64,000 nucleotides of DNA from Anadara kagoshimensis (Eukaryota > Mollusca > Bivalvia > Arcoida > Arcidae), in the NCBI GenBank assembly GCA_021292105.1, contig CM037864.1, forward strand, positions 38,998,486 to 39,062,485, written 5' to 3'. The translations under genes were made by a program, and so were the position numbers. Shown here in pieces: positions 17,901 to 63,322 of the stretch. A model generated the notes under the pieces. That model was not told where the DNA came from. It searched no databases and saw nothing but the letters and a program-made list of their open reading frames with translations. How positions within the stretch are numbered: position 1 is the stretch's first letter; each line of letters opens with the position of its first letter.

Positions 17901-19177
17901 TACACTTGAGAGCATCTACAAGTCATGGGACTCACTTGTAACCTACTTTGACTCAACTGAACTTTCTAAAGACCCCAAAGCCACTGGTCTGAGAAAGTCT
18001 CTCTTGCAGTTCAAGTTTGCATCTATAACTTGGATGCTCATGGATATTATTCCTGTAGTTACTGCACTTAATCTTATATTTCAAAAAGATGCTTTTAGTG
18101 TAGCAGTGATACAGCCTGCTGTGGAACATGCTATTTCAAAATTAGAATATATGAAAATTAATGATGGCCAGTACACCCAAGAATTTAAAAGCTTGCTTGG
18201 TGATGGAAAGCAACTGTATGGCCATGACCTGGAAAATGTGTCTCAGCAGCAAGAAATTCCTAAATCTATCATTATCAAATTCATAGACAATCTGATTCAA
18301 AACCTTAGAAAAAGATTTCCAAGTGACAGTTTGTCAGTAATTTGTGCATTTGACTGTTTAGCTATGAGAGATTTGTCTTTTGTTCCAAAATCAGAATTAG
18401 ATAAATATGGTACAGATAAACTCGACATTTTACTTAAGCATTATGGTGAAGTGCAAAAAGATAAAAGTGACATTGAGCTGTCACCACTGATTGATAAGCA
18501 GGATACAAAAGAAGAATATGGTCTACTGAAGCCACTGATATTGCAACAGATGTATGCAAGAGATCAAATGCCCATATTATGGAAAGTGATACATGAGTGT
18601 CATAAGGACCAGTTTCCAAATTTGATAAAACTTGCAACAGTGGCTTTGACAATTCCAGTGCAGACTGCAGTATGTGAAAGAGGTTTCTCCACACAAAATA
18701 TGATAAAAACTGCTCACAGAAACAGGATAGGAGACTCTACCTTGAGAACTCTAATGACCATTTCCATAGAAGGCCCCCCACTGCAGGACTTTGACCCCCA
18801 AAAATCTCTTCTAGAGTTCAGGACAAAAAAGCAAAGAAGAATCTTTCAGAAGCTTTCCCTTTGATGAGTAAAAAAAAAAAAATAAAGGTAATTAAACATC
18901 AACAGTGGCTTACTATTTTTGTTATTCCCCCCTATTTTTCAAAGCAAGGGGGGAAATTCCCCCTTGTTTTTCATATTCTGAAATGGACACTGTAGGATTG
19001 CAGTTTTATAAATGGTTTACCTTTATAGACAAAGAGACAAAAATCTGCTAACACACACCATCTCTTCTTCCATGGCTTTATTCCACTCTCCTAAAAATAA
19101 TGTAAAACAAAATTAATTTATCTCATGGTTATTTTGAGATGTAGCTTGCTTGCTTGCTTGCTTGATTGATTGATTGG

Positions 19178-42500: not shown

Positions 42501-44653
42501 GCAAATGTTCTTTGCATGGTCTTATATAAAATTAATGTGATCTGACATGTACTACAATGTATATACATTTGAAAATTATCTGAAAACTTAGACTAATAAG
42601 CAATTACCTGCTTTGTAACCGATATCTGCACCTCAAAAATATGACTAGATTCTGTCTAAAGTTAGCTTTGAAGACTTTGGACTAGAATATGTCTAAATAA
42701 TTATAACAAAAGGTGAATGTCCAAATAAATATTGGTAATATATTATTAGAAGACTTGTGAAATTGTACTAATGGGTAATCATAAATAAGCCAGGTATGAT
42801 TTATTTTGGTGTTTAGAACAAAGTGTGACTGCTGGCCTGAGGGTTACTTCTAGCATTTAGACAAAACACAGACATGAATCAGGATAGTTATTTATGTAAC
42901 ACCTCATAACCTTGATTATATCATTAACAGACAGGTATGTGATGACGGGATTTACTTAATGAACTTATAGTGGTACACATATGGCATGTCATTTGGACAA
43001 AAACAATGAGAGACATATTTTAGTAGTGTGTGTATTTATAGTTGAACAAATTTAAATTGTTTAAAATTATTAAATTATGATTAAAACTCAGCTTTAGCTC
43101 ATGACAATGGTTTCAATTTAAAACTTTTTAATGAAAGGGGTTTATTCAACATTTTTATATAGTTCAATCATGGTGCACATTCAGTGTCAAATCTAGGATT
43201 TTCAGGTCAGATCATTTTCAAAAACTTATTTTACTTGCATTTATGTAATGCATGTATGTTAAATATGGTCCACCAAGGCATTAACAATGGGAGTATTTGA
43301 CAAAATAGGGATCAATAGCCCCATTGCCCCTTCTAGATATGAACATTGCACATTGGTCAATTTCATATAAATTCTTCTCAATAGTTGAGGCTGTGGTGGC
43401 CTAATGGATAAGACAAATCCAGGGTCTCTCACTGCTGTGAGTTTGAGCCCTGCTCAGACCACAAGTGGGAAAGTGAATTTTCCTTTCCGTTGGCCTCTAC
43501 CGATATAAACATTGCACATTGGTCAATTTCATATAAATTCTTCTCAATAGTTGAGGCTGCTGTGGCCTAATGGATAAGACAAATCCAGGGTCTCTCACCG
43601 CTGTGAGTTTGAGCCCTGCTCAGACCACGTGGGAAAGTGAATTGCCTTTACTGGTTTACCTGGTATCAGTAGAATGCGACTGGGGGAGTGGTATGCTTGT
43701 ATGCAGTGTACTGACTCTGTGAGCTAGACGTTAAAGTGTCGCCCCAAGTGCACACAAGTACAAGGCAGACCATACAACACCCGCGCTTCAAATGCATACA
43801 CAAACTTGTTCATAGATTAATCCAGAGATTAATGAAAAAGTTCTCATCGGGACTAGCTGAAAAATTGCTGATGACACGTTGAAGCAACATTAAACCAACC
43901 AAACAACCTCCATACAACTTATCCCTGTCATACCCCAATCATGACTACCGGTAAATGATGATAAATATCTACATGTCGACCAATATGCAAACTGTTCATG
44001 ACCAAACAAATTTTTTTATAATAGTGTTATTCCACAGGACAGAAAATGTATCATTGGTAATTCTCTTGCATGATGTCAATATTACCTGTTAACAACCTGT
44101 CAAGCCTCGCTTACCTGTGTCCAGTAGTGTACAGGTAACTCACTAATGCCTCTCATCTGAGGGATAATTTGAATGATCAGGTAATTAGTAATTAATGACA
44201 GGTCAATGACGGATCCCCATGTGACACATTAAATACCATGAATTTGTTTATCAACAGAAATGAGAAATTATGACATTTGTTACTCACATGGCTGGTAATG
44301 AATATGTTGAATTTAATAATTTGGTTTCGTCTAAAATATTAACAAAATTAAAATAATATATTTACCTTGTACAGATTTATGTCCGGTTTGGATAGGTTTA
44401 CCAGTCAACGGATGAAGCCACGATGTTGCTTGAATTCGGTCACTGTCAAATAAAATGACGCACAGGTAAACAAGCGTGTACTCGCGATTATCATATGTAT
44501 TTGACGTAAATTACATAGCTTTATGCAAATGTTGATTTCTAAATAAAATTTTACTTACTCTATGAAAAATATCCTCCCATCTCTTGTCACACCGAAACTA
44601 AAATTCACAGGTAGATCTAGACGCTCCAGCTCCCGGGGGAGACTGGCCGCCAT
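325..44653 (-). CDS. PLEKHA5/6/7-like: WW-PH domain scaffold protein of the PLEKHA5/6/7 family, 22 exons seen, 3' end outside window
   Basis: Seen: 22 exons joined by GT-AG introns with consistent phase give about 1,484 residues, still open at the left edge. Order: WW1 (residues about 14-46), WW2 (59-91), PH (140-236), Asp/Pro/Arg/His-rich and Ser-rich disordered middle (about 245-1185), then a conserved GKTHDELVLMLIQLRREY segment and coiled coil (about 1186-1484). Known of the family: PLEKHA5/6/7 are peripheral membrane scaffolds; PH binds phosphoinositides, the tandem WW region binds PDZD11, and PLEKHA7 acts at adherens junctions with p120-catenin and microtubule-linked partners. The PH core RGWLYRQ...WKKRWCVLADFCLF and the C-terminal coiled coil resemble PLEKHA7 and PLEKHA5. 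Molluscs may have one pro-orthologue, so I do not choose a paralogue. One base is missing within exon 10. Introns run up to 11 kb and are loaded with mobile elements. The start is the ATG followed by AASLPRELERLDLP; an upstream untranslated exon is possible. Confidence 0.93.
725..955 (-). repeat. tRNA-derived SINE, degraded
   Basis: Shares TTTATGCCC...GGATGGTGGATGAAACCAGAGTGCC with the better copies, and ends in a tRNA-like head (ATTTAGACCATTAAGGGCCC, reverse strand). Confidence 0.6.
1001..1150 (-). CDS. PLEKHA5/6/7-like: PLEKHA-like exon 21: coiled-coil segment
   Basis: 150 bases encode DLLDKALQGILRQQDMHRDN and then PRELDRLIYQQRTIEKELSK. As recalled, this aligns with the PLEKHA7 coiled coil containing EKIAYQQKLLQEDL. 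Acceptor ATTTTCAG, donor GTAAGTT. Confidence 0.93.
1767..1847 (-). CDS. PLEKHA5/6/7-like: PLEKHA-like exon 20: coiled-coil segment
   Basis: 81 bases, whole codons, encode DKLERLYELDRLIQEQSFRV and then TSLQEDR. Leu/Ile heptad spacing supports a coiled coil. Acceptor TTTCCAG, donor GTAAAT. Confidence 0.9.
1960..2174 (-). repeat. tRNA-derived SINE, good copy
   Basis: On the minus strand the head reads GGCAGAGTGGTCTAAAA (A-box-like) and GGTTCGAATCCCAC (B box, 2,102-2,115). The body contains the CCACCATCCCAGAACTG and GACTGGGGCATAAAAC blocks shared by all copies. Confidence 0.85.
2339..2473 (-). CDS. PLEKHA5/6/7-like: PLEKHA-like exon 19: coiled-coil segment
   Basis: 135 bases, whole codons, between CTACAG and GTAAATA. 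It encodes HLLSPDEITPPKKMLEFSRK and then a Glu/Lys/Gln-rich helix ending SEEVDLE. Confidence 0.91.
2887..2946. repeat. Three tandem 20-bp units across the exon 18 donor
   Basis: Units ATTGACCTTTCTGTACTCAT, ATTGACCTTTTTGTACTAAT and ACTGACCTTTCTGTACTGAG. The last overlaps the end of exon 18. Confidence 0.85.
2932..3033 (-). CDS. PLEKHA5/6/7-like: PLEKHA-like exon 18, with a tandemly repeated donor region
   Basis: 102 bases encode LEVFRPIVNLVHNM...GSLYGGDNFMLASQYRK. The donor is GTCAGT rather than GTAAGT. The 20-bp block spanning the donor occurs three times in tandem (2,887-2,946), so two further donor-like AAAGGTCAAT sites follow in the intron. The exon is in frame with both neighbours. Confidence 0.85.
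3423..3519 (-). CDS. PLEKHA5/6/7-like: PLEKHA-like exon 17: coiled-coil segment
   Basis: 97 bases between ATTCTAG and GTAAGAT encode RQESDGPFSEAIEIEHRQYK and then DLKYQCEEVSKK. The phase matches the two bases left by exon 16. Confidence 0.9.
3770..3885 (+). repeat. tRNA-like repeat fragment
   Basis: GGGTGATCTGGTGGGT followed 50 bp later by GGTTCAGTCCCCAG resembles A and B boxes. It does not fold into a convincing tRNA. Confidence 0.35.
4040..4164 (-). CDS. PLEKHA5/6/7-like: PLEKHA-like exon 16: conserved LIQLRREY helix
   Basis: 125 bases encode HDELVLMLIQLRREYTSLEK and a further charged helix ending RPNEHQYRR. It starts the C-terminal coiled coil. Donor GTATGT, acceptor ATTTCAG. Confidence 0.93.
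4340..4545 (-). repeat. tRNA-derived SINE, degraded
   Basis: Contains AATGGTGGAGAAAACCGCAG and CCCTAGTCAATACT blocks of the same SINE family. The head is poorly preserved. Confidence 0.5.
4584..4679 (-). CDS. PLEKHA5/6/7-like: PLEKHA-like exon 15: RLRMSI motif before the coiled coil
   Basis: 96 bases encode ETEIPQLGNKYPAL and then GQRLRMSICASDLIGKT. The last residues begin the conserved GKT-EEL block found before the PLEKHA5/6/7 coiled coil. Confidence 0.92.
4878..4969 (-). CDS. PLEKHA5/6/7-like: PLEKHA-like exon 14
   Basis: 92 bases between ATGTAG and GTAAGTT encode DNRRDKGKPKGLGTIHTVKE followed by DPNMPDSDVI. The phase joins exon 13 and ends on a codon boundary. Confidence 0.88.
5155..5246. 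repeat. Two tandem copies of a 33-bp unit
   Basis: AGGAATAGATCCCCCTATAC and AGGAATAGCTCCCCCTATAC, both followed by CAATCATTCTG. Intronic. Confidence 0.8.
5414..5446. repeat. (CT)n microsatellite
   Basis: Uninterrupted CT dinucleotides, about 15 units, in the intron before exon 14. Confidence 0.95.
5912..6628 (-). CDS. PLEKHA5/6/7-like: PLEKHA-like exon 13: Ser/Thr/Lys/Pro-rich exon with internal repeat
   Basis: 717 bases from the TTTTTAG acceptor to an internal GTAGTC donor. The open frame runs past the donor into the intron, but only the splice at 5,912 joins exon 14 in frame. It contains four near-repeats of a TSTQPxKSS unit and then Ser-rich sequence. Confidence 0.87.
6365..6500 (-). repeat. 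Coding repeat in exon 13: four near-copies of a TSTQPxKSS unit
   Basis: Units of 33-39 bases (GACTTCGGAGGCTGAGTGGA on the plus strand) encode STQPPKS/STQPLKS blocks. The two inner units are almost identical in DNA, so the expansion is recent. Confidence 0.8.
7818..7880. repeat. Two tandem copies of a 28-bp unit
   Basis: GACTCGTCTCTCTCCAGAAG followed by ATTCTGTT, twice in succession without a mismatch. Confidence 0.85.
8355..8673. mobile_element. Inverted-repeat element with AGTAAAACCTCA ends (Tigger/pogo-like MITE)
   Basis: The left end AGTAAAACCTCATTTTAATG and the right end TGAATTGAGGTTTTACT are inverted. AGTAAAACCTC ends are typical of pogo/Tigger-type mariner derivatives (recalled). Similar single ends occur at 28,621, 29,964 and 34,474. 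Confidence 0.65.
8941..8979. repeat. (GT)n microsatellite
   Basis: About 18 GT units in the long intron between exons 12 and 13. Confidence 0.95.
11054..11333 (-). CDS. PLEKHA5/6/7-like: PLEKHA-like exon 12: Tyr/Gly/Arg/Asp-rich disordered segment
   Basis: 280 bases between TTTATCAG and GTAAAT. It encodes GQQPDQHGYRYGDD and repeated RYGD/RYGG units (DRRGDRYGDRQQNRYGG). Composition resembles exon 10. Phase fits exons 11 and 13. Confidence 0.88.
11987..12641 (-). CDS. PLEKHA5/6/7-like: PLEKHA-like exon 11: charged, disordered middle region
   Basis: The acceptor TATTGTAG and donor GTAAGC bound 655 bases. It encodes DLKRDDQKRSSVQKLQDWQR and then Ser/Asn/Arg-rich sequence ending in KSFLQ. It contains a short helical segment (RQQIVEELAQTK...DAEMALEKRM). 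Confidence 0.9.
13291..14381 (-). CDS. PLEKHA5/6/7-like: PLEKHA-like exon 10: long Asp/Pro/Arg/His-rich exon with a one-base frame break
   Basis: 1,091 bases. It opens with KEKEKNNNTTKLIPKSAF MEWEDVG, then long low-complexity sequence with repeated DPR, HPSG and PPYAR units (about residues 300-560). The reading frame from the acceptor runs to a stop at about 13,304, but exon 11 needs the next frame. In that frame the last 110 bases read PSDRPNDQRYPEHDRRGP, which fits the composition before it. The frame switch probably sits near 13,405-13,415. One missing base restores all phases across the exon, so this is either an assembly error or a damaged allele. Confidence 0.85.
14461..14665 (+). repeat. 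tRNA-derived SINE
   Basis: The head AGTGAATGAGTTGTCTAAAG and B box GGTTTGAATCCCAC are in order. They are followed by the shared body GGGAAGATCCTATTGTGGGA. Confidence 0.8.
15283..15375. repeat. Two tandem copies of a roughly 50-bp AT-rich unit
   Basis: TAAATTAATATTTAATGTGC and TAAATTAATATTTTTAATGT, both followed by TAATTATTATAA. Located just left of exon 9. Confidence 0.7.
15468..15675 (-). CDS. PLEKHA5/6/7-like: PLEKHA-like exon 9: rest of PH domain
   Basis: 208 bases between ATTTCAG and GTATGT. It encodes GSILLPSYRIHQC through DDMNRWINALKLAAML, including the C-terminal PH helix with its conserved tryptophan (W226). GSI-LPSY is a strong PLEKHA signature. Confidence 0.94.
15897..16135 (+). 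repeat. Interspersed repeat with GTATACCCC tail
   Basis: Contains CATACAAAATTTCAAGTAGC, a GGACAGATAGAAGGACAGAG stretch and the hairpin GTATACCCCTC...GAGGGTATAAT. A second tail-like copy (GTATACCCTACCCCC...GGGGGTATAAT) is at 11,673-11,712. I recall this tail as frequent in bivalves. Confidence 0.55.
16220..16367 (-). repeat. tRNA-derived SINE, head part, interrupted by the hAT element
   Basis: Read on the minus strand, the right end starts with TAGTGGTTGAGTGATCTGA (A-box-like) followed by a CAGTG...CACC stretch, as in the other SINE heads here. The hAT insertion cuts it at the TAGGAT repeat. Confidence 0.6.
16587..16652. repeat. Imperfect hairpin in the transposon leader with AGGGAGGTAACTAGT arm
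   Basis: Two 21-base arms (16,587-16,607 and 16,632-16,652) are inverted with two mismatches around a 24-base loop. The arm motif AGGGAGGTAACT is one I recall as common in molluscan genomes. It sits about 65 bp before the transposase ATG. Confidence 0.75.
16716..18864 (+). pseudogene. hAT transposase with BED/TTF-like zinc finger, one frameshift
   Basis: Two adjoining frames (16,716-17,606 and up to 18,864) form one transposase of about 715 residues. N-terminal part: a basic, disordered leader; a WLKDWRWLKYEDGVMKC block with a CxxC...H...H zinc finger (C89, C92, H116, H122); and MTDESTDIS with a probable catalytic aspartate. The second part starts in the SDGASVMTG block (second catalytic aspartate) and ends with the hAT dimerisation region IPVQTAVCERGFSTQN. 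The closest recalled relatives are KIAA1586/ZNF862-type domesticated proteins and their transposons. The frames are offset by one extra base near 17,594-17,599; otherwise no stop occurs. The break is young or a sequencing error. An AATAAA lies just after the stop. If the base is an error, the element could be autonomous. Confidence 0.9.
19021..19090 (-). CDS. PLEKHA5/6/7-like: PLEKHA-like exon 8: PH domain core with basic phosphoinositide-binding strand
   Basis: It encodes ESGIKPWKKRWCVLADFCLF. The basic KPWKKRW segment (about residues 153-159) is where PH domains of this family contact phosphoinositide headgroups. The right end of the hAT transposon (18,992) plus its target repeat stops 22 bp from this exon's donor. 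Confidence 0.94.
19147..19234. repeat. (TTGC)n/(GATT)n microsatellite
   Basis: TTGC units pass into GATT and then TTTA units. Adjacent to exon 8. Confidence 0.9.
19452..19524 (-). CDS. PLEKHA5/6/7-like: PLEKHA-like exon 7: linker and start of PH domain
   Basis: It encodes HLKAPSASRDDSS and then VTMRGWLYRQ, the first strand of the PH domain with the usual GWL motif (residues 143-145). Donor GTATGT, acceptor TTTTCAG. Confidence 0.93.
19699..19839. mobile_element. Small MITE-like inverted-repeat element (141 bp, ACCCC ends)
   Basis: The left end ACCCCATAACGTTTCTGC and the reversed right end ACCCCGTAATGTTTGTGC match at 15 of 18 positions. There is no gene inside. The target duplication is unclear. 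Confidence 0.65.
19903..20215. repeat. Two tandem copies of a 140-170-bp unit
   Basis: CTTTGATTACAGAAGAAGGC and CTTTGATTAAAGAATCCTGT both begin units that share CCTAATTTTAATTC and ATCATAATTTCTGACAAAT. Confidence 0.7.
20412..20443 (-). CDS. PLEKHA5/6/7-like: PLEKHA-like exon 6: 32-nt microexon
   Basis: The acceptor ACTTACAG and donor GTTAGT bound 32 bases encoding PTPKKSPNKQ, a basic linker between WW2 and PH. Its phase joins exon 5 to exon 7 exactly. Skipping exon 6 alone would break the frame; skipping exons 5 and 6 together (60 bases) would keep it. Confidence 0.8.
20964..21274. mobile_element. MITE family 1, copy 1 (311 bp, CAGGGATTTATC ends)
   Basis: The ends CAGGGATTTATC and GATAAATCCCTG are inverted repeats. 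It is flanked by AATTA on both sides. It shares nearly its whole sequence with the copies at 22,211 and 34,993. It has no coding capacity. Confidence 0.88.
21452..21479 (-). CDS. PLEKHA5/6/7-like: PLEKHA-like exon 5: 28-nt microexon
   Basis: A 28-base exon between TTTTTCAG and GTAAGT encodes SPPQSPVQS. It starts in the phase left by exon 4 and ends on a codon boundary. It is too short for an ORF scan; phase and splice sites support it. Confidence 0.8.
22211..22522. mobile_element. MITE family 1, copy 2
   Basis: Same orientation and about 97% alike to the copy at 20,964 by eye. AGTTAC flanks both ends, a likely 6-bp target duplication. Confidence 0.88.
23405..23585. repeat. Interspersed repeat R1, copy 1
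   Basis: AGCCAAATTTC...AAAATACAGTCCTGTTTAAA...TTTGCTAATATGC...TAGAAATAAGAAGCC recurs at 31,905 and 38,025. No gene is visible. Confidence 0.6.
24395..24625 (-). repeat. tRNA-derived SINE
   Basis: Reverse-strand copy with AACCCCAGTCAAGATTCTTT, the GGTTTAGACCAATTGGCCAC head and the GGTGTCAGTTCT-like body. The B box is degraded. Confidence 0.7.
25305..25445 (+). repeat. tRNA-derived SINE, 5'-truncated body
   Basis: The shared body GTTGGTGGTTTTCTATGGGT and TTGCCTCCACCAATTCC is present without a head. It lies just before exon 4 in the PLEKHA-like intron. Confidence 0.5.
25481..25561 (-). CDS. PLEKHA5/6/7-like: PLEKHA-like exon 4: second half of WW2 and proline stretch
   Basis: The acceptor TTTACAG and donor GTAAG are clear. 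The exon encodes DHNGKGTTFEHPVTGR, followed by a short PPPPT stretch. The second WW tryptophan is phenylalanine (F85); as I recall, vertebrate PLEKHA7 WW2 also has phenylalanine here, so this is probably ancestral. Confidence 0.92.
26375..26498 (-). repeat. tRNA-derived SINE, head only
   Basis: The reverse strand reads GGGGCTTCAATGGCTGGGTG then GGATCACAGCACC...TTTGAATCCCACTC. Body truncated. Confidence 0.65.
26960..27350. repeat. Three degenerate tandem copies of a 115-130-bp unit
   Basis: Each unit contains AGGGTAACTA-TTGCA, a TGATTGAACTAAATAAA block, CTGAGCCT and GGTATACCACTGAACAAA. Confidence 0.7.
28045..28135. repeat. Interspersed repeat R2, copy 1 (second copy 38,560-38,650)
   Basis: GGTCCAAGCACTACTGA followed by AATGGCTGTCTAGTGTTGTA. 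The copy at 38,560 reads GGTCCAAGCACTACTGA and CAGCCATCAAGTGCTATA. Confidence 0.6.
29200..29402 (+). repeat. tRNA-derived SINE, 5' part degraded
   Basis: GTTTGAATTGGACTCGGGGA (B-box remnant), then the shared body with GGTGGTTTTCTCCCAAGAAG and CATTACTCAAGTCCACTC. Confidence 0.65.
29471..29680. mobile_element. MITE family 2, copy 1 (210 bp, CAATTGACGTATC ends)
   Basis: The inverted ends of about 36 bp are almost perfect: CAATTGACGTATCgCTGGCC on the left matches the reverse of the right end. The interior has no gene. A diverged copy lies at 36,288. Confidence 0.85.
31325..31450. repeat. Two tandem copies of a roughly 62-bp unit
   Basis: CTATGCTTGTGCAGTACTTG and CTATGCTTGTGCAGTGCTTG, both followed by GTAGCCAAAATA. 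The small open frame here comes from the repeat. Confidence 0.75.
31530..31615 (-). repeat. tRNA-derived SINE, head fragment
   Basis: The reverse strand reads GGTGGCCAAGTGGTCTGAAG and GATTTAAATCCAAATGG. Body missing. Confidence 0.6.
31905..32080. repeat. Interspersed repeat R1, copy 2
   Basis: Shares TAGCCAAATTTCAAAAAATT, TAGTCCTTTTTAAAGTATTT and CAGAAATAAAAACATAGC with copies 1 and 3. Confidence 0.6.
32091..32345 (+). repeat. tRNA-derived SINE, most complete copy
   Basis: Head GGAGCCTTGATGGCTGAGTG with GGTCTAA, B box GGTTCAAATCCCAC (32,155-32,168). The full body runs through GGTGCTCTGATTTCCTCCAC and TTTGACTGGGGCATAAAAAA to the CCACTCCATTCTGAGAC tail. Confidence 0.87.
32398..32525 (+). repeat. 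tRNA-derived SINE, body fragment
   Basis: Starts in TGGGTACTCCAGTTTCCGCC and ends CATTACTCCACTCAAC, following the full copy closely. Confidence 0.65.
33265..33500 (-). repeat. tRNA-derived SINE, diverged
   Basis: Contains TTTATACCCATGGATTC, GGTGGAAACCAGAGTTG and a reversed tRNA-like head with CATGAGAGGCATT. Confidence 0.6.
34993..35303. mobile_element. MITE family 1, copy 3
   Basis: Same element and orientation. TACAT flanks both ends. It contains a few substitutions, such as AACAGGCCC near the right end. The short open frame inside it is an accident of the repeat. Confidence 0.88.
36288..36476. mobile_element. MITE family 2, copy 2, opposite orientation
   Basis: Starts CAATTGACGTATCG and ends GGTCAATTG. 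The interior (CACCATCATGGTACCA...) is the reverse complement of the interior at 29,471-29,680, so the copy sits the other way round. More degraded. Confidence 0.8.
36832..36889 (-). CDS. PLEKHA5/6/7-like: PLEKHA-like exon 3: first half of WW2
   Basis: The acceptor TTGTAG and donor GTAAGT frame 58 bases encoding GLPIGWEQAVTPEGAVYYI. This is the first part of WW2 with its tryptophan W63. It is flanked by the two longest introns of the gene (about 7.5 and 11.3 kb). Confidence 0.92.
38025..38205. repeat. Interspersed repeat R1, copy 3
   Basis: Shares GTAGCCAAATTTCAAAATTT, CTTTAAAGTACTTTTTTCA and TAAATTAGTAGCCAATGG. Confidence 0.6.
39519..39573. repeat. (ATC)n microsatellite
   Basis: About 18 uninterrupted ATC units in intron 2. 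Confidence 0.95.
43334..43905 (+). repeat. Second tRNA-derived SINE family with tandemly duplicated head
   Basis: The tRNA-Arg-like head (GTGGCCTAATGGATAAGAC, B box GAGTTTGAGCCC) occurs twice, near 43,387 and 43,553. Both lie inside a 166-bp direct duplication that begins AACATTGCACATTGG. A longer body follows, from about 43,640 (GGTTTACCTGGTATCAG) to a GCAACATTAAACCAACCAAA tail. Confidence 0.8.
44366..44442 (-). CDS. PLEKHA5/6/7-like: PLEKHA-like exon 2: second half of WW1
   Basis: The exon follows a TTTGACAG acceptor and ends before GTAAA. It encodes DDRIQATSWLHPLTGKP and completes WW1 with its second tryptophan (W40). SWLHPLTG is the family signature. One base carries over to exon 3. Only a 116-bp intron separates it from exon 1. 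Confidence 0.93.
44559..44653 (-). CDS. PLEKHA5/6/7-like: PLEKHA-like exon 1: start codon and first half of WW1
   Basis: The ATG lies at 44,651-44,653 and the exon ends before GTAAGT, leaving two bases of a split codon. It encodes MAASLPRELERLDLP and then the WW1 strand TRDGRIFFI. The usual first WW tryptophan is phenylalanine here (F18). The in-frame context and the WW match fix the start. Confidence 0.9.
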
Positions 44654-45735: not shown

Positions 45736-46982
45736 CTACTTACAACATAGAGAGACGATCCGTCTAAAATATTACCCCAAAAAATAAGTTATAGGTGTAA
45801 CTCCGTAAAAAAGCGTGAGGAAATTTTTGATTGGTCTGATGAAATAATCGGGACTGTGCGAACCATGTATCAAACCATATTTTAAAATTTTAATTTACAA
45901 ACAGAAAATGAAAATTGAGCAAATTTTACTTTTAAATTCAGTTTAAATGAAAATGAGATGTATTGTGATGTGCTAATTAGCAAATGAACACATTTCCATG
46001 TGGTGATTTTGAATATTTTATTACATAAAAATGACGGTGCGATTGTTGATTTCTATCAAGAATATGCCAATTCGGTGTTTGGTTGTTTGAAAATGATTTT
46101 ACATCACATGAGCAATTCTTTAAGTTTTCCATTCGTGACGAAACTTTTTTTTTTTCATTTTCCTTATTATTTGTAAGAATCATGTAAACACAAGTTAGTT
46201 TAGTATGCTAGTTTTGTATTAGTATTTTTGATCTGTTTTCAATTTGCACTAGTATTGCACTAACTGTGCATTTTAAGTGTGTTAGTATGATTGTACACAT
46301 TTCTTGTCGTAGATAAACAGTGCGCACTCAGTTCGTTAAACTGATACTGAGGCCTAAATAGTAGTCCCAGCCAACGACAAGGAATTTTTCCATTCTTTTT
46401 TCAAAATTACGATTTTTCTTTACTTGTATGCATATTTTTTATAATTAAATTGCTGAAAAGGTTGCTGTGTGATCAGACGGATGTACAAGGACTTCTATTC
46501 TTTTGTGCTCCTTGTAAAATTTCAAAATTCTGCACAAAAAACTGTATTCACCTCTATGATTTAGCTCATCCTTAAAATTTGATTTGAGTTTTGATTCCCA
46601 ATTAAAAGGATATAATACAGTTTATTTTAAATTTTAGACTTGAGTTATCTCTCTTTGACCATAACATAACAAAATGAAAAAAATGTATTGTAGATCAGAA
46701 CATCAATAGCTAATTCTTACATTAAAATTGTGTTTTTACCATAGTAGATGACATCTAGTCAGTTTCATTGACATTTTTGATAACATCTAGTGGATTTTTC
46801 ATTTTTTTTCCACACAACTCGTTGAACATCACTGAGAGCAGTCCAGATAATTTATATGTAAGAAAGTTTTTTTTATTAAAGTGACTTGTGCATAACATCT
46901 AATACAAGTGTCATAAACAATAATACATTATCTTACACCCGGCCCATTGGGCTTATAAGTCACTATTCATTCTATGGACATC

Positions 46983-47043: not shown

Positions 47044-47168
47044 TTTTATTTTAAAGTGCAACCCGGTTTAGCCTTTGTAAGCTTATGATGCACTATCAAT
47101 TATATGGCATTTTGAGACTGTCTATGGCACAGTAGTACTGTAGTGAATTTACACTGGTATAAGCTGTA

Positions 47169-47217
47169 GGCCTTGATAGCTCAGTGGTAGAGCATCTGAC
47201 TCCGGAGCAGAAGGTCC
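47169..47217 (+). pseudogene. 5' two-thirds of a tRNA-like sequence with CCG at the anticodon position
   Basis: GGCCTTGATAGCTCAGTGGT and AGAGCATCTGACTCCGGAGC match D-arm/A-box and anticodon-arm sequence. The T arm and acceptor 3' half are missing: after AGAAGGTCC the sequence turns into CCTCTCTCAG. It may be the head of a SINE or the promoter of the adjoining hairpin array. It is not a functional tRNA. Confidence 0.65.
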
Positions 47218-47275
47218 CCTCTCTCAGTTTATATACATGTTTTTAGCCAATAACTACTGGAATAATGCAAACCAA

Positions 47276-47556
47276 CAATACAGCTGGATGACGAAAGACC
47301 TCTCTCAGCTTATTGTTTAATCTGAACTGAAACTGGATCCGGTAATACAACTGGATGACATAAGGCCTCTCGCAGCTGTTATACCGAAATATAACTGGAT
47401 GACTTAAGGCCTCTCACAGTTATATATAAAACTGGATCAGGATCTCTGGATTTCTGCAATTCGGTGATGGAACTGGATGACGCAAGGCCTCTCACAGCCC
47501 ATCTGCCGATATAGAACTGGATGACGTAAGGCCTCTCACGGTCTATATCATTGCAG
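47276..47556 (+). repeat. Array of five hairpins with a conserved 19-nt loop and variable self-complementary stems
   Basis: Each unit is CTG + 19-nt loop + CAG (CGG in the last). The loop consensus is GATGACRYAAGGCCTCTCA. Units: 47,276-47,315; 47,340-47,386; 47,389-47,425; 47,461-47,509; 47,503-47,556. The outer stems differ in sequence (CAATA/TATTG; CGGTA/TACCG; ATATAA/TTATAT; TCGG+GATGG/CCATC+CCGA; GATATAGA/TCTATATC), yet each pairs with its own partner. A tRNA-like A-box sequence lies about 60-110 bp upstream on the same strand. I do not recognise the family. It could be a structured RNA, part of a SINE-like element, or nested palindromic insertions. Confidence 0.85.
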
Positions 47557-48604
47557 ACTGAATCTGGACTTCCAAGACATGGGATCCTTCGAGCCAAAAT
47601 CATATGCAGCAAAGAGATACTCGAAACCTGCTCTTTACGCAATTAGAAGTGACGAAAGCCAACTCCTAACGCCACTGGTACAGGTTTCTCCCGTTAGCTA
47701 CTGTTGTTTCCAAAATCTGCTTAACTGAAACATTACGAATTCTGGCCACGGATCTTTGGATTTCTGCATATGCATATATGTATTGACATATGTATATGGA
47801 AACTTCATATCTCACATAATTCTGCAAATCGTGTGTTATCATTCTATGGTTCAATGGAGTGTTTGAAAAGAAATGAATGAAATAAGTATAGGTCTACATA
47901 TTCCAAAAGACAAATGTTTCAGTCCATGAAAGGCAGGTGCGGTTTTATCAGGAGCTGTTTGTTATTGTCAAATATAATTTTAAAAATAACCTAGTATATG
48001 GTTGTCTGTCATGTGCTTCATTTTTTCACTATTATAATTATATCTAATCATAAGGTAGGAGGAATTACCTCCCCTTGGTTTTATATTCTATATAGACACT
48101 AACAATGAAATCATCTTGTGCTGCAAAGGGTTTGCTATTTCATTAAACTTTAAAAGAAGTAAATGCTTTATTATTACTGACTTTTGACTTGCAATAAAAT
48201 AGGACTAGAACATAGGGCCCAGATTTATTATTTATAAATTATGGTTCTCTCTTTGTATACTGTAGGTATTTTTTATTACTCATGATTAAAATTAATCTGG
48301 TCGCATGTGGATTAGAACATTTTTTAAAAGTCAGAAATCTGCATCAATACAGCGCACAAAGCGAGAGAATTTAATGGAAGACTTTAAAATTGAATATTTA
48401 AAGTCTCCTCATCGTGAACAACCTTCAGTTAAAAATCGCAAAAATGACAACGAAGATCGCAAATCGCTGAGTTTCAGTCCGTCGAATGAGATGCGTCTAT
48501 CTTACAAGAAAGTAGCTACTTCGGAAAATCATATCCACTTGCCATCGCATGGTGCATTATCTGTGAGACAATGGTACATAAAACTGAATGCAAGATATTA
48601 CCAA

Positions 48605-51141: not shown

Positions 51142-51440
51142 CTCGACTGGGAGGTGTGGCGTGCTCCTGTAATCCAGCTACTTGGAGGTCGGAGTTGGGA
51201 GATGGTTTGAGGGTGGGAGTTCTGCCTTCCGACTGTCTGCGTAGAGCGGGCGTCCGCACTAAGCTCAGCATCAATATGGTCACATCGGGGGAGCCTAGTG
51301 TGACCAGGTTGTCTAGGGAGGAACGTACCGGCCCAGGGCGGAAACGCAACAGGCAAAAGTTCCCGTGTTGAGCAGTAGTGGGATCGCGCCTGTGAGTAGA
51401 CACCGGTTGGCAGCCTGTCCAATATAATCGGACCCAATTC
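51142..51440 (+). ncRNA. RN7SL: 7SL (signal recognition particle) RNA gene
   Basis: About 299 nt, the normal animal length. The 5' domain holds CTCCTGTAATCCAGCTACTT, matching the SRP9/14-binding UGUAAUCCAGCUAC fold. The S domain follows human 7SL closely: GTCCGCACTAAGCTCAGCAT, ATCAATATGGTCAC, ACCAGGTTGTCTAGGGAGGA, ACCGGCCCAGGGCGGAAAC (helix 8 with GGAAAC loop), CAGTAGTGGGATCGCGCCTG. The transcript would act with SRP54, SRP19, SRP68/72 and SRP9/14 in co-translational targeting to the endoplasmic reticulum. No truncation or A-tail is visible, so this looks like a real Pol III gene rather than a retrocopy. One point differs from human: the 3' side of the helix 8 loop reads AACAGG instead of AGCAGG. 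Open frames overlapping it are spurious. Confidence 0.95.
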
Positions 51441-51478
51441 TTTTCTTCTTTTTTTTTTTGTTTTCTTTTTTTTTTTTA
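51441..51478 (+). terminator. Pol III T-run terminator of the SRP RNA gene
   Basis: TTTT directly after the RNA, then longer T runs (TTCTTTTTTTTTTG, TTTTTTTTTTT). No poly-A tract marks a retroposed copy. Confidence 0.8.
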
Positions 51479-52635: not shown

Positions 52636-53147
52636 TAGTCCAAGAGATCATGGCTAAAATCCGGGTGAACGAGGCCAAAAGGTTTGAAGGTTGATTCTTG
52701 TAGGGAAATGTCCCTAGTTACTGAAAACCCATTTCTTACGCGTCAAATCGTTTCCGATTTTTTAATCAGAAACAGTTTTTGAAGAAAAGCCTCTGCAAAT
52801 GTCAAATTTTGGTAAAAAATAAAAATTCCAGATTTTGAAGCATTTTGTGCCAAAAACAACACAAAAATGTTCATTTTATCTTTCATTGTGGACACATAAT
52901 AGATTAAAATGCAAAACATCCTGACAGTTTTCCGATTTTGTGTCAAAAATTTAAAATAAGCGATAAAATCTATGCTGTAAACTGCGTTTTTATCATATCT
53001 ACCGTCTTTCGATTCTTGTAAATCTGTTGTTTATGCATTAAATATGACAAACTGTATATTTTTTTAAAGTCTTGGTAGTGCTGTAGATAAAAATGTTACA
53101 AAACTTCGGAAATATGGAACCTTAATACCGTAGCAAATTATTATGTT

Positions 53148-54330
53148 TCCCCTACCCCAAAAATACGAAAATGTCAAAAATTCATTATTTTGGCCCATGC
53201 TTGCCGATAAGTGTTTAAAACAAATCATTATTGTTTGTTACATCTCCCGTCTGTTCCCGACATATTTATAAAACAATTATATGTAGAGTGCTTGGTGATT
53301 CTATATGAAAATTTGCACTTTTCATATAAGAGTAGTTTGGAAAATGAGTTTTCATTAAATCATTTGTACTCTACTTATGTAATTTTGTTATATAGGCATT
53401 GAATCTCGAGATTTATATATTTCTGTATTGCCATTGTACATTTGAGTCTGACAACATAAAAAACTATCGGAAATACCGAAGTTTATAGACGAAACGGATA
53501 AATTTATTTCCCCTACCCCAAAATTGAAAAACATGTGAAAATCCATTTTTATGCAATATATGCCGATTTGTGTTTCTAATGAAGATTTCGAGCAAAAGTA
53601 CCCGCAACAATGATAAAACAAGCTTCGAGGATTTTAAATATTTGTGAAATGCTTTAGCTTAAGGACAGATAGGACTAACTAATATAATAAAATTGCCTAT
53701 TTTATTCACTTATATGTAAAATGCCATAAGAAAAAAGGAGCTTTGCCTCTTGTATTTTTGTTATTTAGGCATTGAATCTCGACTGTTATCTATTGACGTA
53801 ATTCCTTGACATATAACAGTCTAATTACACCAAAAACTGTCGGAAATAGCAAAGCTTGTAGATGAGGCGAATAAATTTATTTCCCCTACCTCAAAATTGC
53901 AAAAAAAAATGTGAAAACCCTGTTTTAGCCAATATGTAACAATTAGTATTTCTAATGGAAGTTTCAAGCAAATGTGCATGTAAGAATGGAAAAAGAAGAT
54001 TGAAGTATACAAAATAATTTACAAAATGCATCATTTCAATGGCAGATTGGTCTAATTATTCATAGAAAAATGCCTACTTCTTTCATTTTCAATTCAATGT
54101 GCTATGGCAAAAAAGAATCTTCGCTTTTTGTATTTTTGTTATATAGGCATTGACTTTCAAATATCAGATATTGATTCAATGCGCTTACACTAAAATCATT
54201 AAAAACATGAAAATATTTCGGAAATGTCATTTTTTGTAGCTGTCATGAATCAATTGATTTCCCCGTCTCCAAAATATGAAAACATAGAAACCCTCTCCAG
54301 GCTAAGAAGTCATAGGTTACCTTTTTGCAT
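53148..54330. repeat. Left-arm tandem repeat, about 365-bp units
   Basis: Four units with landmark TTTCCCCTACCCCAAAA at 53,148, 53,508 and 53,880, and degenerate at 54,257. Spacings are 360, 372 and 377. Identity falls toward the centre of the element. Confidence 0.8.
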
Positions 54331-56604: not shown

Positions 56605-57882
56605 ATGGCCTAAAAATTTTTTTCACACTTTTGGGGTAGGGGAAATAAATTTATTGGCCTTATTTACAAGCTTTGCTATTTCCGACAGATTTTGGTGTTA
56701 TTAGACTGTTATATGTCAAGGAATTACGTCAATAGATAACAGTCGAGATTCAATGCCTAAATAACAAAAATACAAGAGGCAAAGCTCCTTTTTTCTTATG
56801 GCATTTTACATATAAATGAATAAAATAAGCAATTTTATTATATTAGTTAGTCCTATCTGTCCTTAAGCTAAAGCATTTCACAAATATTTAAAATCCTCGA
56901 AGCTTGTTTTATCATTGTTGCGGGTACTTTTGCTCGAAATCTTCATTAGAAACACAAATCGGCATATATTGCATAAAAATGGATTTTCACATGTTTTTCA
57001 ATTTTGGGGTAGGGGAAATAAATTTATCCGTTTCGTCTATAAACTTCGGTATTTCCGATAGTTTTTTATGTTGTCAGACTCAAATGTACCATGGCAATAC
57101 AGAAATATAAATCTCGAGATTCAATGCCTATATAACAAAATTACAAGAAGTAGAGTACAAATGATTTAATGAAAACTCATTTTCCAAACTACTGTTACAT
57201 GAAAAGTGCAAATTTTCATATAAATCACCAAGCACTCTACATATAATTGTTTTATAAATATGTCGGGAACAGACGGGAGATGTAACAAACAATAATGATT
57301 TGTTTTAAACACTTATCGGCAAGCATGGGCCAAAATAATGAATTTTTGACATTTTCGTATTTTTGGGGTAGGGGAAACATAATAATTTGCTACGGTATTA
57401 AGGTTCCATATTTCCGAAGTTTTGTAACATTTTTATCTACAGCACTACCAAGGCTTTATAAAAAATATAGTTTGTCATATTTAATGCATAAACAACAGAT
57501 TTACAAGAATCGAAAGACGGTAGATATGATAAAAACGCAGTTTACAGCATCGATTTATCGCTTATTTTAAATTTTGACACAAAATCGGAAAACTGTCAGG
57601 ATGTTTTGCATTTAATCTATCATGTGTCCACAATGAAAGATAGAATGAACATTTTTGTGTTGTTTTTGCCACAAAATGCTTCAAAATCTGGAATTTTTAT
57701 TTTTTACCAAAATTTAACATTTGCAGAGGCTTTTCTTCAAAAACTGTTTCTGATTAAAAAATCGGAAACGATTTGACGCGTAAGAAATGGGTTTTCAGTA
57801 ACTAGGGACATTTCCTACAAGAATCAACCTTCAAACCTTTTGGCCTCGTTCACCCGGATTTTAGCCATGATCTCTTGGACTA
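56605..57882. repeat. Right inverted arm of the fold-back element
   Basis: Reverse complement of the left arm with three landmark sites (TTTTGGGGTAGGGGAAA). Small peptides beginning MFYHCCGYFCSKS appear in both arms (53,388-53,621 minus, 56,904-57,110 plus) only because the arms are inverted copies. Confidence 0.82.
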
Positions 57883-58142: not shown

Positions 58143-60828
58143 TTACTTTGTTTTTAGATTGTGGTTTGGAATAGATTTACTATTACAGGTTTGTTCGTCA
58201 CTCAGCACACGGATAATACCCCGATATGTTTCTGCAGCCTGCATAACATACGAAATGAAACCACCATCATCTGCAGTTTCCATTTTACAATTTTCACCTA
58301 GATCAAATGTACTCAACACACTAGCCAGCATTCTTTTGTTGTTTTTACTTTTCCTTTTGGCTTCTCTATTGGGTAGATTTCTTGTCAGCGAGAACTCGTT
58401 ATCAATAACGAATTCACCGGAGCGTCTCAGTCTCTCATGGTCCTTAGCAGATATTTGATGGTACTTGTCGAATACTAGTATAACAATTCTCTTTGAATTA
58501 TCTGGGTTCTGATACAACCTGTTTTATATAGATGCGAATCTGATGGGTTGCCACCATGTGGCCAAACGATATGGTAGAAAAGTTGTGAAACATCAATTAT
58601 GACTGTGTTAGGGAGTTTTGGGGAAAGTTCAACTACACCAAGCTGTTTTACTAGAGCTGACTTTGAGCATTTCCGGAGACATCAATTTCTATCCACCAGC
58701 GAAGAAGGAACAGAACATAATTCATATACAAATAGAGGTGCAAGCTCAATCTGTCGTTGCTGTCCAAACATCAGTAACCGAAGAAAAATGCTTCCAAGGT
58801 CAATGACTGACTTTGCTTTTGCATCTTGACTGCGCCGCCTAGATACGCTCATTGTCTTTATATAACCACTGATGACATTATAAAATCCATCAGGTAGGCT
58901 CGATATGTATTTGTACTCCATCTTCTTGCCCCTTACAAGTGAATCTGCCACATTGACATCATTTGAAGCAATTTGGCCAGTGGCTGAGTTATACAAATAT
59001 GGCCTATTATCATCTAGAGGATATGTGTATATGTTTACTGCAACAGCAATAAGATTCCGGTCATGTGCATCCATGGAACGTCGAGACTTGGACTCTTCTT
59101 TGTGTTTTTGTACAGAGTTATGGTCTGGATCACACTCGGAATATATGCATTTCAATCGATCTGAGATATACACTGTAATTGGAAACGCACCAATCCACTC
59201 ACTAACAAGATCATCTCTTTGAATTATCTGGGTTCTGATACAACCTGTTTTATATAGATGCGAATCTGATGGGTTGCCACCATGTGGCCAGGCGAAAGAG
59301 TCATGCCTTTGAGAGCTCCTTTTCCAATTTTGATACCAGTTTGTTTTCCAAAGTGGTCAACTGAGGCAGCATTCCAACAACCATCATGCTGTCTACAGGC
59401 AAGATCCTCTACAGGACAAACATTCATTTCTAGCCAATACTGTGTAAGATAACATGCCCAGCAAGAAAGAAATATTTCATCATGCGTTTCATAGCAAGAA
59501 CTTTTAACTGGATATCACCTTTTCTTTCGGCACGTTCAAACTGATGGACAAGAAGCTTTGGAAATAGAAAATCGTCAACCCAATGCCGTACAGTGGGATG
59601 TACACGGACACTGTCAAGATACTCTCCTATTTCTGCAAACGTCTTTGCTCCAGTTGACAAAAATGACTTTAGAAGTGCAGCTGCTACACCACGAAAAGCT
59701 CGCATAGCTTTTACCCATGACTTCCCATTAAAGATTCCAGTCACACCACCGTATGCTGCAGCAACATAGCTTTCCAGTCCGGATCCATTCATAAGTTTCC
59801 CTATACAGCTAAGAAAGGACTGTATAATATGCATACAACCAGGATGAACAATTACATTACCAAACTGCATAGGCTGATACCAACACACTTGTTTTGTCAC
59901 AGCATAAAGCTGCATGTCCATACAGAGATGTACTTTCTCCATGCCTATATCCACCAGTGATTGCTGCATATAAGTTAGAGTTGGAAGGATTGTGTCAGGG
60001 TGTGATGGTGGTGCATCAATCAACGGACCAAACATATAAAGTACAAGCACGTTTCAAATTTCCCTAATTCCGAGCACATAGGTTATTAAAGCCATTCCAT
60101 TCCATTGCATCTTTCTCCTGACTTAGACTATTGAGCCATTGTGTGTTCCTTTCTTGAGCAGGCAATAAACTTATTTGCTGGTTGTGCAAATCAGAATACC
60201 TTTTGCCAATAGTCGTGATGGTAGGCACTGCTGGAGGTATAACTTTCTTCGGACCAGTATAATGTATAAGTGCAACAGTAGTTTCAGTTTCTTGCTTAAT
60301 CTGCTTAATAGTAAGGCGAGGAAAAGTTAGTGAGCCAAACCTAGACTGTACACTGCCGGTTTCAATTATACCAGCTGGATGGACCTGGAACTCTGTAGCC
60401 ATAGCATGTGTCTCACGACGACTGTTTGGAATAGAAACTAGTAGATCGAAATTATCATACCACCCAAAAATAAGTCCTACTGTTCGACTTAAACCATCAA
60501 TTTGTGGAATGTTGTAGCATTATCATGTACAGATTTTGCTGCAGATTTTCGAAACCGTAAAACTTCATCATATGAGGCAATGTATCCATGTTCAAGTAAA
60601 ATAGTATCAATTCACTGATGCCAAACCTATGTTGTAGTTTAATACCAAGTCCAAGTGTAGTTTGGTTTCCATTCGTGGTTATATGTGACTGAATTGACTG
60701 TGATGGTGAAAATGAGGCTTTATATATTTGTCATCCATCTCAGGTGTCTGCTCTTTGTAAGCTGGCATTTTTCTGAAGTCGTCGTAACATCGATGATGAC
60801 GCTGAGCTTCAGCAGCTGATAAATCATT
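58143..60828 (-). pseudogene. Uncharacterised multicopy gene, copy A (middle and C-terminal part), broken
   Basis: Conserved pieces in several frames, reading minus: GIIETGSVQSRFGSLTFPRL (about 60,350), LYMFGPLIDAPPSHPDTI, YAVTKQVCWYQPMQF, HWVDDFLFPKLLVHQFER, MNVCPVEDLACRQHDGCWNA, LKGMTLS, DRLKCIYSECDPDHN, then VELSPKLPNTVIIDVSQLF and DKYHQISAKDHERLRRSGE. I recognise a large family of uncharacterised proteins that is repeated many times in bivalve, cnidarian and fish genomes, with a probable C-terminal nuclease-like (PIN-like) region; the function is unknown. This copy has a nonsense codon (CARN-stop, about 60,064), frameshifts, and a 77-bp insertion at 59,214. It stops at RVLSDEQ, before the expected acidic motif, where retroelement sequence begins. 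Confidence 0.75.
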
Positions 60829-62820
60829 GTCGTTGCTGTCCAAACATCAGTAACCGAAGAAAAATGCTTCCAAGGTCAATGACTGACTTTGCTTTTGCAT
60901 CTTGACTGCGCCGCCTAGATACGCTCATTGTCTTTATATAACCACTGATGACATTATAAAATCCATCAGGTAGGCTCGATATGTATTTGTACTCCATCTT
61001 CTTGCCCCTTACAAGTGAATCTGCCACATTGACATCATTTGAAGCAATTTGGCCAGTGGCTGGGTTATACAAATATGACCTATTATCATCTAGAGGATAT
61101 GTGTATATGTTTACTGCAACAGCAATAAGATTCCGGTCATGTGCATCCATGGAACGTCGAGACTTGGACTCTTCTTTGTGTTTTTGTACAGAGTTATGGT
61201 CTGGATCACACTCGGAATATATGCATTTCAATCGATCTGAGATATACACTGTAATTGGAAACGCACCAATCCACTCACTAACAAGATCAGGCGAAAGAGT
61301 CATGCCTTTGAGAGCTCCTTTTCCAATTTTGATACCAGTTTGTTTTCCAAACTGGTCAGCTGAGGCAGCATTCCAACAACCATCATGCTGTCTACAGGCA
61401 AGATCCTCTACAGGACAAACATTCATTTCTAGCCAATACTGTGTAAGATAACATGCCCAGCAAGAAAGAAATATTTCATCATGCGTTTCATAGCAAGAAC
61501 TTTTAACTGGATATCACCTTCTCTTTTGGCACGTTCAAACTGATGGACAAGAAGCTTTGGAAATAGAAAATTGTCAACCCAATGTCGTCCAGTGGGATGT
61601 ACACGGACAATTTCAAGATACTCTCCTATTTCTGCAAACGTCTTTGCTCCAGTTGTCAAAAATGACTTTAGAAGCGCAGCTGCTAAACTACGAAAAGCTC
61701 GCATAGCTTTTACCCATGACTTCCCATTAAAGATCCCAGTCAAACCACCGTATGCTGCAGCAACATAGCTTTCCAGTCCGGATCCATTAATTAGTTTCCC
61801 AATACAACTAACAAAGGACTGTATAATATGCATACCACCAGGATGAACAAACTGCATAGACTGATACCAACACACTTCTTTCGTCACAGCATAAAGTTGC
61901 ATGTCCATACAGAGATGTACTTTCTCCATGCCCATATCCACTAGTGATTGCTACATATAAGTTAAGTTGTAATGATTGTGTCAGGGTGTGATGGTGATGC
62001 ATCAATCAACGGACCAAACATAATTATAAAGTACAAGCACGTTTCAAATTTCCCTCATTCCGAGCACATAGGTTATTGAAGCCATTCCATTCCATTGGAT
62101 CTTCCTCCTGACTTAGAATATTGAGCCATTGTGTGTCCTTTTCTTGAGCAGCTAATAAACTTATTTGCTGATTGTGCAAATCAGAATACCTTTTGCCAAT
62201 AGTCTTGGTGGTAGGCACTGCTGGAGCTGGAGGTATAACTTTCTTCGGACCGGTATAATGTATAAGTGGAACAATAGTTTCAGTTTCTTGCTTAGTCTGC
62301 TTAATGGTAAGGCGAGGAAAAGTTAGTGAGCCAAACCTAGACTGTACACTGCCGGTTTCAATAATACCAGCTGGATAGACCTGGAACTCTGTAGCCATAG
62401 CATGTGTCTCACGGCGACCGTTTGGAGTAGAAACTAGAAGATCGAAATGATCATACCACTCAAAAATAAGTCCTACTGTTCGACTTAAACCCATCAATTT
62501 GTGGAATGCTGTAGCATTATTATGTACAGATTTTGCTGCAGATTTTCGAAACCGTAAAACTTCATCATTTGAGGCAATGTATCCATGTTCATGACATGTA
62601 AAATAGTATCAATTCACTGATGCCAAACCTATGTTGTAGTTTAATACCAAGTCCAAGTGTAGTTTGGTTTCCATTCGTGGTTATATGTGAAAGAATTGAC
62701 TGTCACAATGAGGCTTTATTTGTTTGTCATCCATCACAGGTGTCTGCTCTTTGTGAGCTGGCATTTTTCTGAAGTCGTCATAGCATCGATGATGACACTG
62801 AGCTTCAGCAGCTGATAAAT
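58752..62820. repeat. Tandem duplication, two units of about 2.0-2.1 kb
   Basis: TCGTTGCTGTCCAAACATCA at 58,753 and 60,832; GGCGAAAGAGTCATGCCTTT at 59,291 and 61,290. The units run in the same direction and are only a few percent diverged. The junction sits at about 60,828 after CAGCAGCTGATAAATCA. Confidence 0.9.
59214..59290. repeat. 77-bp templated insertion in copy A
   Basis: Identical at all 77 positions to 58,488-58,564 and in the same orientation. Absent from copy B, which reads straight through AGATCAGGCGAAAG. It ends the reading frame of copy A. Confidence 0.92.
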
Positions 62821-63322
62821 CATGGACTCAATGACAGCGGAGGGCAACTTCCCTGCTCCAAGTGTCAGCAAGATCTGCACAATATCGAAGTACAATGTCT
62901 TTTAAAGGTGTTGTATCTTCGATACCTATTCGCTCACAGTGTATTACTCTGTCCCATCTATCAGGATGCTTTGGATCTTTTGGTTTGCACATTTCAGCAC
63001 AAAACAAACACTGGTTTTTGAAATTAATATCAATTACTTGTGACCGTCTCACTCTTACCGCCGGGACTTCATAAATTTCACCTTCTTTTCGTTTTTTTCG
63101 CCAAGTGTTTCCTAATATGGTCTTTTGAAGTGAAATTACAGTAAAAAGTTTTATGAATGTCCACTGCAGCTTGTTCTCCTTGAGATGTCAAAACAGGTTG
63201 TATTTGTATACAGATTTCATCATCATGGCGTTCACACTCATGGATTTTTTCACAGCTTGAACTTTGACCGTTTGTACTGGACCAGGTTTACTGCAGGTTG
63301 AAATAATACACTTACCATCCAT
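60829..63322 (-). pseudogene. Uncharacterised multicopy gene, copy B (N-terminal and middle part), broken
   Basis: The possible start at 63,320-63,322 reads MDGKCIISTCSKPGPVQTVK. Further on are QVIDINFKNQCLFCAEMCKP and PDRWDRVIHCERIG (62,828-63,052; a Cys-pair motif), then the same middle blocks as copy A down to LLMFGQQRQ. There the sequence passes directly into the start of copy A at about 60,828. Stops and frameshifts occur near 63,185, 62,826 and 62,024. Compared with copy A this copy lacks the 77-bp insertion and keeps CARNEGNLK where copy A has a stop. The middle 2 kb of the gene has been duplicated in tandem. Confidence 0.75.

Follow-up and report, generated by a model that had tools for sequence, protein, structure and literature searches.

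A small tandem array of hairpins with a conserved core and differing, self-paired arms

The window analysed here, which is the whole stretch of 64,000 nucleotides (64 kb), carries between positions 47284 and 47541 five neighbouring copies of a 25-nt core of the form CTG-N19-CAG, the fifth of which ends in CGG. On the plus strand the core can be written as CTG-GATGACNNAAGRCCTCTCN-CRG (n = 5), and the core-to-core steps along the array are 67, 44, 78, and 44 bp. The features at the locus, with hairpin cores given as read on the plus strand, are the following:

47170–47216, plus strand: tRNA-Arg-like fragment comprising the acceptor 5′ side, the D arm, and the anticodon arm (Rfam, blastn)
47218–47232, plus strand: probable remnant of the right half of a hairpin (core and arm), matching 47299–47313 (end of the unit 1 core plus arm) at 14 of 15 places
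47240–47244, plus strand: TTTTT run, before unit 1
47274–47317: unit 1, core 47284–47308, arms 47274–47283 and 47309–47317, stem AACAATA..TATTGTT, three loop mismatches (pattern search and fold)
47340–47386: unit 2, core 47351–47375, stem with an internal loop (pattern search and fold)
47389–47425: unit 3, core 47395–47419, outer stem purely A/T (pattern search and fold)
47461–47509: unit 4, core 47473–47497, stem TCGG+GATGG / CCATC+CCGA, diverged copy of unit 2
47508–47549: unit 5, core 47517–47541, stem GATATAGA / TCTATATC, diverged copy of unit 3
47337–47425: block of units 2 and 3, duplicated as 47459–47548 (81.1% identity over 90 columns, BLAST)
47459–47548: block of units 4 and 5, copy of 47337–47425

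The loop pattern, searched with up to three mismatches, gave five matches in the 64-kb window, all on the plus strand and all within 47287–47538, and 100 shuffles gave a mean of 0.01 matches and a maximum of one; a pattern search for a sixth core within three mismatches found none in the window. These results bear out the claim of five tandem hairpins with one common loop, which had been made before any search was run, and the stems quoted with that claim are found in the sequence. The loop consensus then proposed is exact in units 4 and 5 and departs from the sequence by one mismatch in units 2 and 3 and by three in unit 1; similarly, the closing CAG holds for units 1 to 4 and fails in unit 5. 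In the five-unit register, 20 of the 25 core columns are invariant, variation being confined to the central two letters and to one column each of G/A, N, and A/G. The left flank keeps C(–11), A(–6), T(–5), and A(–2) in all five units, and among the 20 columns inspected after the core on the right flank none is invariant.

Every unit folds into a hairpin using its own arms. The dependence of this pairing on the right combination of arms was assessed by a permutation test in which one consensus core was kept fixed, every 5′ arm was combined with every 3′ arm, and the total energies of the 120 permutations were compared. On the plus strand, the true combination gave the lowest of the 120 totals at arm lengths of 8, 10, 12, and 14 nt and ranked second at 6 nt, where one other permutation was better; on the minus strand (12-nt arms) it was first of 120. 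When the 3′ arm was slid by 4 to 20 nt, the total energy went from –67.8 to values between –42.0 and –27.3. Moreover, the own arms of units 2 and 4 summed to –30.0 versus –19.4 when exchanged between these sisters, and those of units 3 and 5 to –24.4 versus –15.3, so that the exchange costs more than one third of the folding energy in both pairs. The proposal that the unlike stems each pair within their own unit is therefore confirmed, own arms being the best of 120 and sister swaps spoiling the pairing. Bulges or mismatches persist in the stems of units 1, 2, 4, and 5.

Folding against dinucleotide-shuffled controls, a check suggested by the sequence-only reading, likewise revealed pairing beyond chance. 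The 441-nt region 47160–47600 had a z of –2.40, with 3 of 100 shuffles folding as well, and for units 1 to 5 the z values were –3.43, –1.34, –2.30, –2.03, and –2.12, equally good folds being reached by 1, 22, 8, 5, and 7 of 200 shuffles, respectively. Base-shuffled arms matched the five units in 0, 33, 0, 82, and 18 of 2,000 trials. A further null used 4,000 pairs of real flanks taken from the 64-kb window, with the array region excluded: the summed pairing of the five units was reached in none of 100,000 draws and that of units 1, 2, and 4 in 3 of 100,000, and single units 1 to 5 were matched by 2.1, 2.0, 10.4, 0.5, and 1.5% of the window places, unit 3 thus providing the weakest evidence against real flanks. 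A chance origin of the array is ruled out by the pattern shuffles together with the arm permutations.

The units are not independent of one another, since units 4 and 5 are a diverged copy of the block formed by units 2 and 3, at an offset of 122 bp. Therefore, the argument that unlike stems exclude tandem duplication does not hold, and duplication built at least that part of the array. According to the alignment of the blocks, copying of a two-hairpin unit accounts for at least some of the growth of the array, and the arms diverged afterwards. In the ungapped register, the blocks differ at 5 of 50 core places versus 16 of 39 places elsewhere (Fisher p 0.0009); with the BLAST gap, the non-core differences come to about 12 of 40, as derived from the 17 of 90 differing columns, and the p value applies to the ungapped count.

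Between the sister units (2/4 and 3/5), the arms show many differences at adjacent positions. Comparison by hand revealed that, from unit 2 to unit 4, core-adjacent pairs were replaced by other pairs with the register shifted by one base, and a similar register slip was found between units 3 and 5. Pairing is thus kept in slipped registers rather than column by column, and column-wise covariation is weak because of this one-base slip. The covariation test that had been advised gave a weak signal with RNAalifold: only 2 of 10 pairs were changed on both sides, and the covariation term was slightly unfavourable (+0.24). In a random-change test, one sister was mutated to the observed distance in 5,000 runs, and the frequency with which the stability of the other sister was reached was recorded for the directions 2→4, 4→2, 3→5, and 5→3. 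In the ungapped setting, these frequencies were 1.5, 14, 3.1, and 23% on the plus strand and 1.8, 1.5, 4.6, and 29% on the minus strand; in the setting with fewer changes, they were 3.5, 20, 1.1, and 16% (plus) and 6.5, 3.4, 1.9, and 25% (minus). With rates from 1 to 29%, drift alone is therefore unlikely in some directions and possible in others.

As to the strand, the minus strand folds better in four of the five units, with sums of –81.1 versus –65.1 on the plus strand, and at the two pair positions directly flanking CTG/CAG, all 10 pairs of the five units are possible on the minus strand (G-U included) versus 6 of 10 on the plus strand; in unit 5, one CTG/CAG pair is broken on the minus strand. 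The core alone also folds better on the minus strand (–4.2 versus –2.2), and because of this, random flanks favour that strand equally: the strand difference summed over all units (–11.6) is unremarkable beside random flanks, whose mean is –1.54 each with a standard deviation of 2.61. The attempt to name the transcribed strand from stability was consequently dropped. The core-adjacent pairing counts lean towards the minus strand, and the energies match the controls.

Searches for relatives of the array covered the window, curated families, and large collections. A covariance model built from the array and run with filters off over the 64-kb window gave 27 matches up to an E value of 10, five of which were the units themselves; the other 22 had E values from 0.038 to 9.8, and the core was absent from the three of these shown as alignments, among them the minus strand of unit 2. 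Rfam gave five matches below gathering score between 46500 and 48500, none of them over the hairpins, and assignment of the hairpins to a known RNA family was dropped accordingly. No match to the array was found in a viral contig collection, and in a genome contig collection of 257 billion bases the 19-base pattern had two bacterial matches, about the number expected by chance from simple arithmetic. Literal stretches of the array sequence were not found in open-licence papers. Two stretches further upstream, 46873–46981 and 47046–47110, each hold one hairpin (AGTGACTT/AAGTCACT and AGTGCA/TGCACT), have similar outer letters, and seemed akin by eye, and 8 and 84 of 200 shuffles, respectively, fold equally well; their kinship was rejected, as unrelated window stretches surpassed their alignment score of 38 (up to 44 among 489 and up to 45 among 459 compared, array surroundings excluded).

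Other parts of the window hold features of their own. At gathering score, the only Rfam match in the whole 64-kb window was an SRP RNA on the plus strand (51146–51443), a full-length metazoan match of 255.9 bits against a gathering score of 70 that is followed by T runs and may be a gene or a pseudogene. This match speaks for an animal as the source of the DNA. A tRNA-like, SINE-like unit with stretches resembling A and B boxes by eye occurs in two tandem copies at 43321–43643, with a period of about 166 bp (92% identity by BLAST, 95% by TRF). A hAT-type transposase lies in two overlapping frames of the plus strand at 16701–18861, with the zinc finger zf-C17orf113 and a hAT dimerisation domain above the cut-off and DUF4371 below it. 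An inverted duplication of about 1.27 kb (52636–53908 and 56617–57882, 97.5% identity) contains weaker repeats, and a tandem duplication of about 2 kb (58752–62823, pieces 93.2 and 99.6% identical) has open frames on the minus strand, four of which were scanned with Pfam and gave no match.

The tRNA-like stretch directly upstream of the array is incomplete. The Rfam tRNA model scored 25.8 bits over 47170–47249, against a gathering score of 29, and accommodated the T-arm part solely as 27 unaligned nt; ARAGORN called no tRNA in the stretch, and neither a B box nor a T arm was seen there by eye. By blastn, 47170–47216 resembles one annotated phage tRNA-Arg and, in part, four unannotated plasmid places, these phage and plasmid matches concerning the tRNA-like part only, and the likeness to tRNA-Arg stops at 47216, inside the variable loop; by our own reading, the anticodon would be CCG. 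Complete A and B boxes, as in the head of a Pol III-transcribed SINE, were not found in the stretch. The likeness of the adjoining 47218–47232 to the array was equalled once among 595 other stretches of the window and never among 300 shuffles (array surroundings excluded), which suggests a junction between the tRNA-like piece and a broken hairpin unit, perhaps at an AAGGYC common to both. A Pol III transcript running over the array, once considered conceivable from an A-box-like sequence, is not supported, given where the tRNA likeness ends and the TTTTT run that precedes unit 1. If the tRNA-like fragment were transcribed, such a run would act as a Pol III terminator, and the polymerase would halt ahead of unit 1.

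The reading preferred here, tentatively and with somewhat less than even confidence, is that of a stem-loop motif repeated in a small tandem array, most likely within an untranslated region or a structured non-coding RNA, its core being kept for its sequence and its arms for their pairing. The array would then be transcribed, and the 25-nt core would be retained through contact with a protein or an RNA, as a putative binding site, and the arms for their ability to pair, and several hairpins would jointly offer repeated docking sites. After duplication of the two-hairpin block, the arms diverged with each unit's own arms still pairing best. The array may thus perhaps be a protein-binding RNA module. 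The sequence-only reading had likewise proposed a selected structure of RNA or single-stranded DNA, and the conserved core with differing, self-paired arms agrees with it; selection is, however, not separated from template-switch repair of the arms. The main rival, a strong one if on the unlikely side, is a diverging minisatellite in which template switching in the course of DNA replication made the arms match again, leaving structure without selected function. Both hairpin stems and multibase compensatory changes have been reported to arise and be maintained through template switching (PMC8794818), and the clustered arm differences of 2/4 and 3/5 with their one-base slip are, in our reading, what copying of the opposite arm could yield. 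By itself, however, this process leaves the retention of the core amid changing arms unexplained, fresh copying would erase the bulges and mismatches that persist in four of the units, and the cases in the relevant portions of PMC8794818 are RNA genes, on which selection also acts.

The array might instead belong to the body of a mobile element, either SINE-like with a tRNA head or Helentron-type with a short repeat array, its hairpins being recognised by a mobility enzyme. The tRNA-Arg-like fragment directly upstream and the part of a hairpin unit behind it point in this direction, tRNA heads are present in curated bivalve SINEs as far as the pertinent text of PMC10294476 goes, and corresponding portions of PMC7492417 describe the tandem arrays of oyster Helentron-type elements as mostly short, two or three monomers being commonest among all screened arrays. 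This explanation is nevertheless unlikely: the 64 kb yielded no second copy, the B box was not seen by eye, a search for target-site duplication among exact 8–12-mers common to 47120–47175 and 47541–47960 found one 8-mer, and, of the 70 inverted pairs surrounding the array, the 25 longest showed no clear terminal repeats. More unlikely still would be an undescribed class of tandem stem-loops in an animal genome, in which a dedicated partner reads the 25-nt core, the arms are free to vary if paired, growth proceeds by two-hairpin blocks, and a truncated tRNA-Arg was captured or did the capturing. An improbable alternative places the function in the DNA itself, with clustered protein-binding sites in palindromic, cruciform-prone sequence, the core containing TGACNNAA; it would fit the first rank of own-arm pairing on both strands and the ordinary strand energy difference. 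The central two letters of TGACNNAA, however, differ among all five units (GA, AT, TT, GC, GT), a change that a bZIP-like site would hardly tolerate, and the conserved core exceeds the length of one such site. Finally, a remnant of a protein repeat is very improbable: the plus strand read from CTG translates as LDDxRPL[TSA][AV] in all five units, but the units stand in different frames (start modulo 3 of 1, 2, 1, 1, and 0), stops occur in all six frames across the array, and the letters vary most at the first and second positions of a codon with an invariant third base; on these grounds a coding repeat was rejected. If the array is transcribed, it would offer, at a single locus, a compact natural example of stems that change yet stay paired around a conserved core, in which sister units that diverged within one genome, and that are comparable with orthologous loci, would allow selection on structure to be tested against template-switch repair.

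Several known systems share single traits with the array. Mollusc tRNA-derived SINEs (V, Deu, and Meta types) likewise have a tRNA-like stretch upstream, whereas that of the array is truncated in the variable loop and target-site duplication was not found. Bivalve Helentron-type and pearl elements, among whose described parts are palindromes and microsatellites according to excerpts of PMC7492417 and PMC5139131, resemble it by their satellite-like arrays of few-copy tandem units; however, the oyster monomers of the 13 clusters studied are mostly 140–180 bp, against array steps of 44–78 bp (PMC7492417, in the part concerned), and in the hairpin array only the core is alike across units and element ends were not found. 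Short hairpins multiplied within one genome are also described, in the section concerned of PMC7813641, for the mitochondria of sponges, Allomyces, and placozoans as repetitive or double hairpin elements, whereas the present array is non-mitochondrial, tandem, and found at one place. The roX RNAs are built of repeated stem-loops with a short conserved box, and for Drosophila roX2, passages of PMC6301720 report that a 72-bp stem-loop region repeated six times in tandem suffices for binding of the MSL complex to the X. As a DNA pattern, the array shows the same repeated stem-loops with paired variable stems, differing in that conservation falls on the core together with the apical loop and that the array is known from DNA alone; the roX type may therefore be regarded as a functional parallel of the array, without any claim of kinship.
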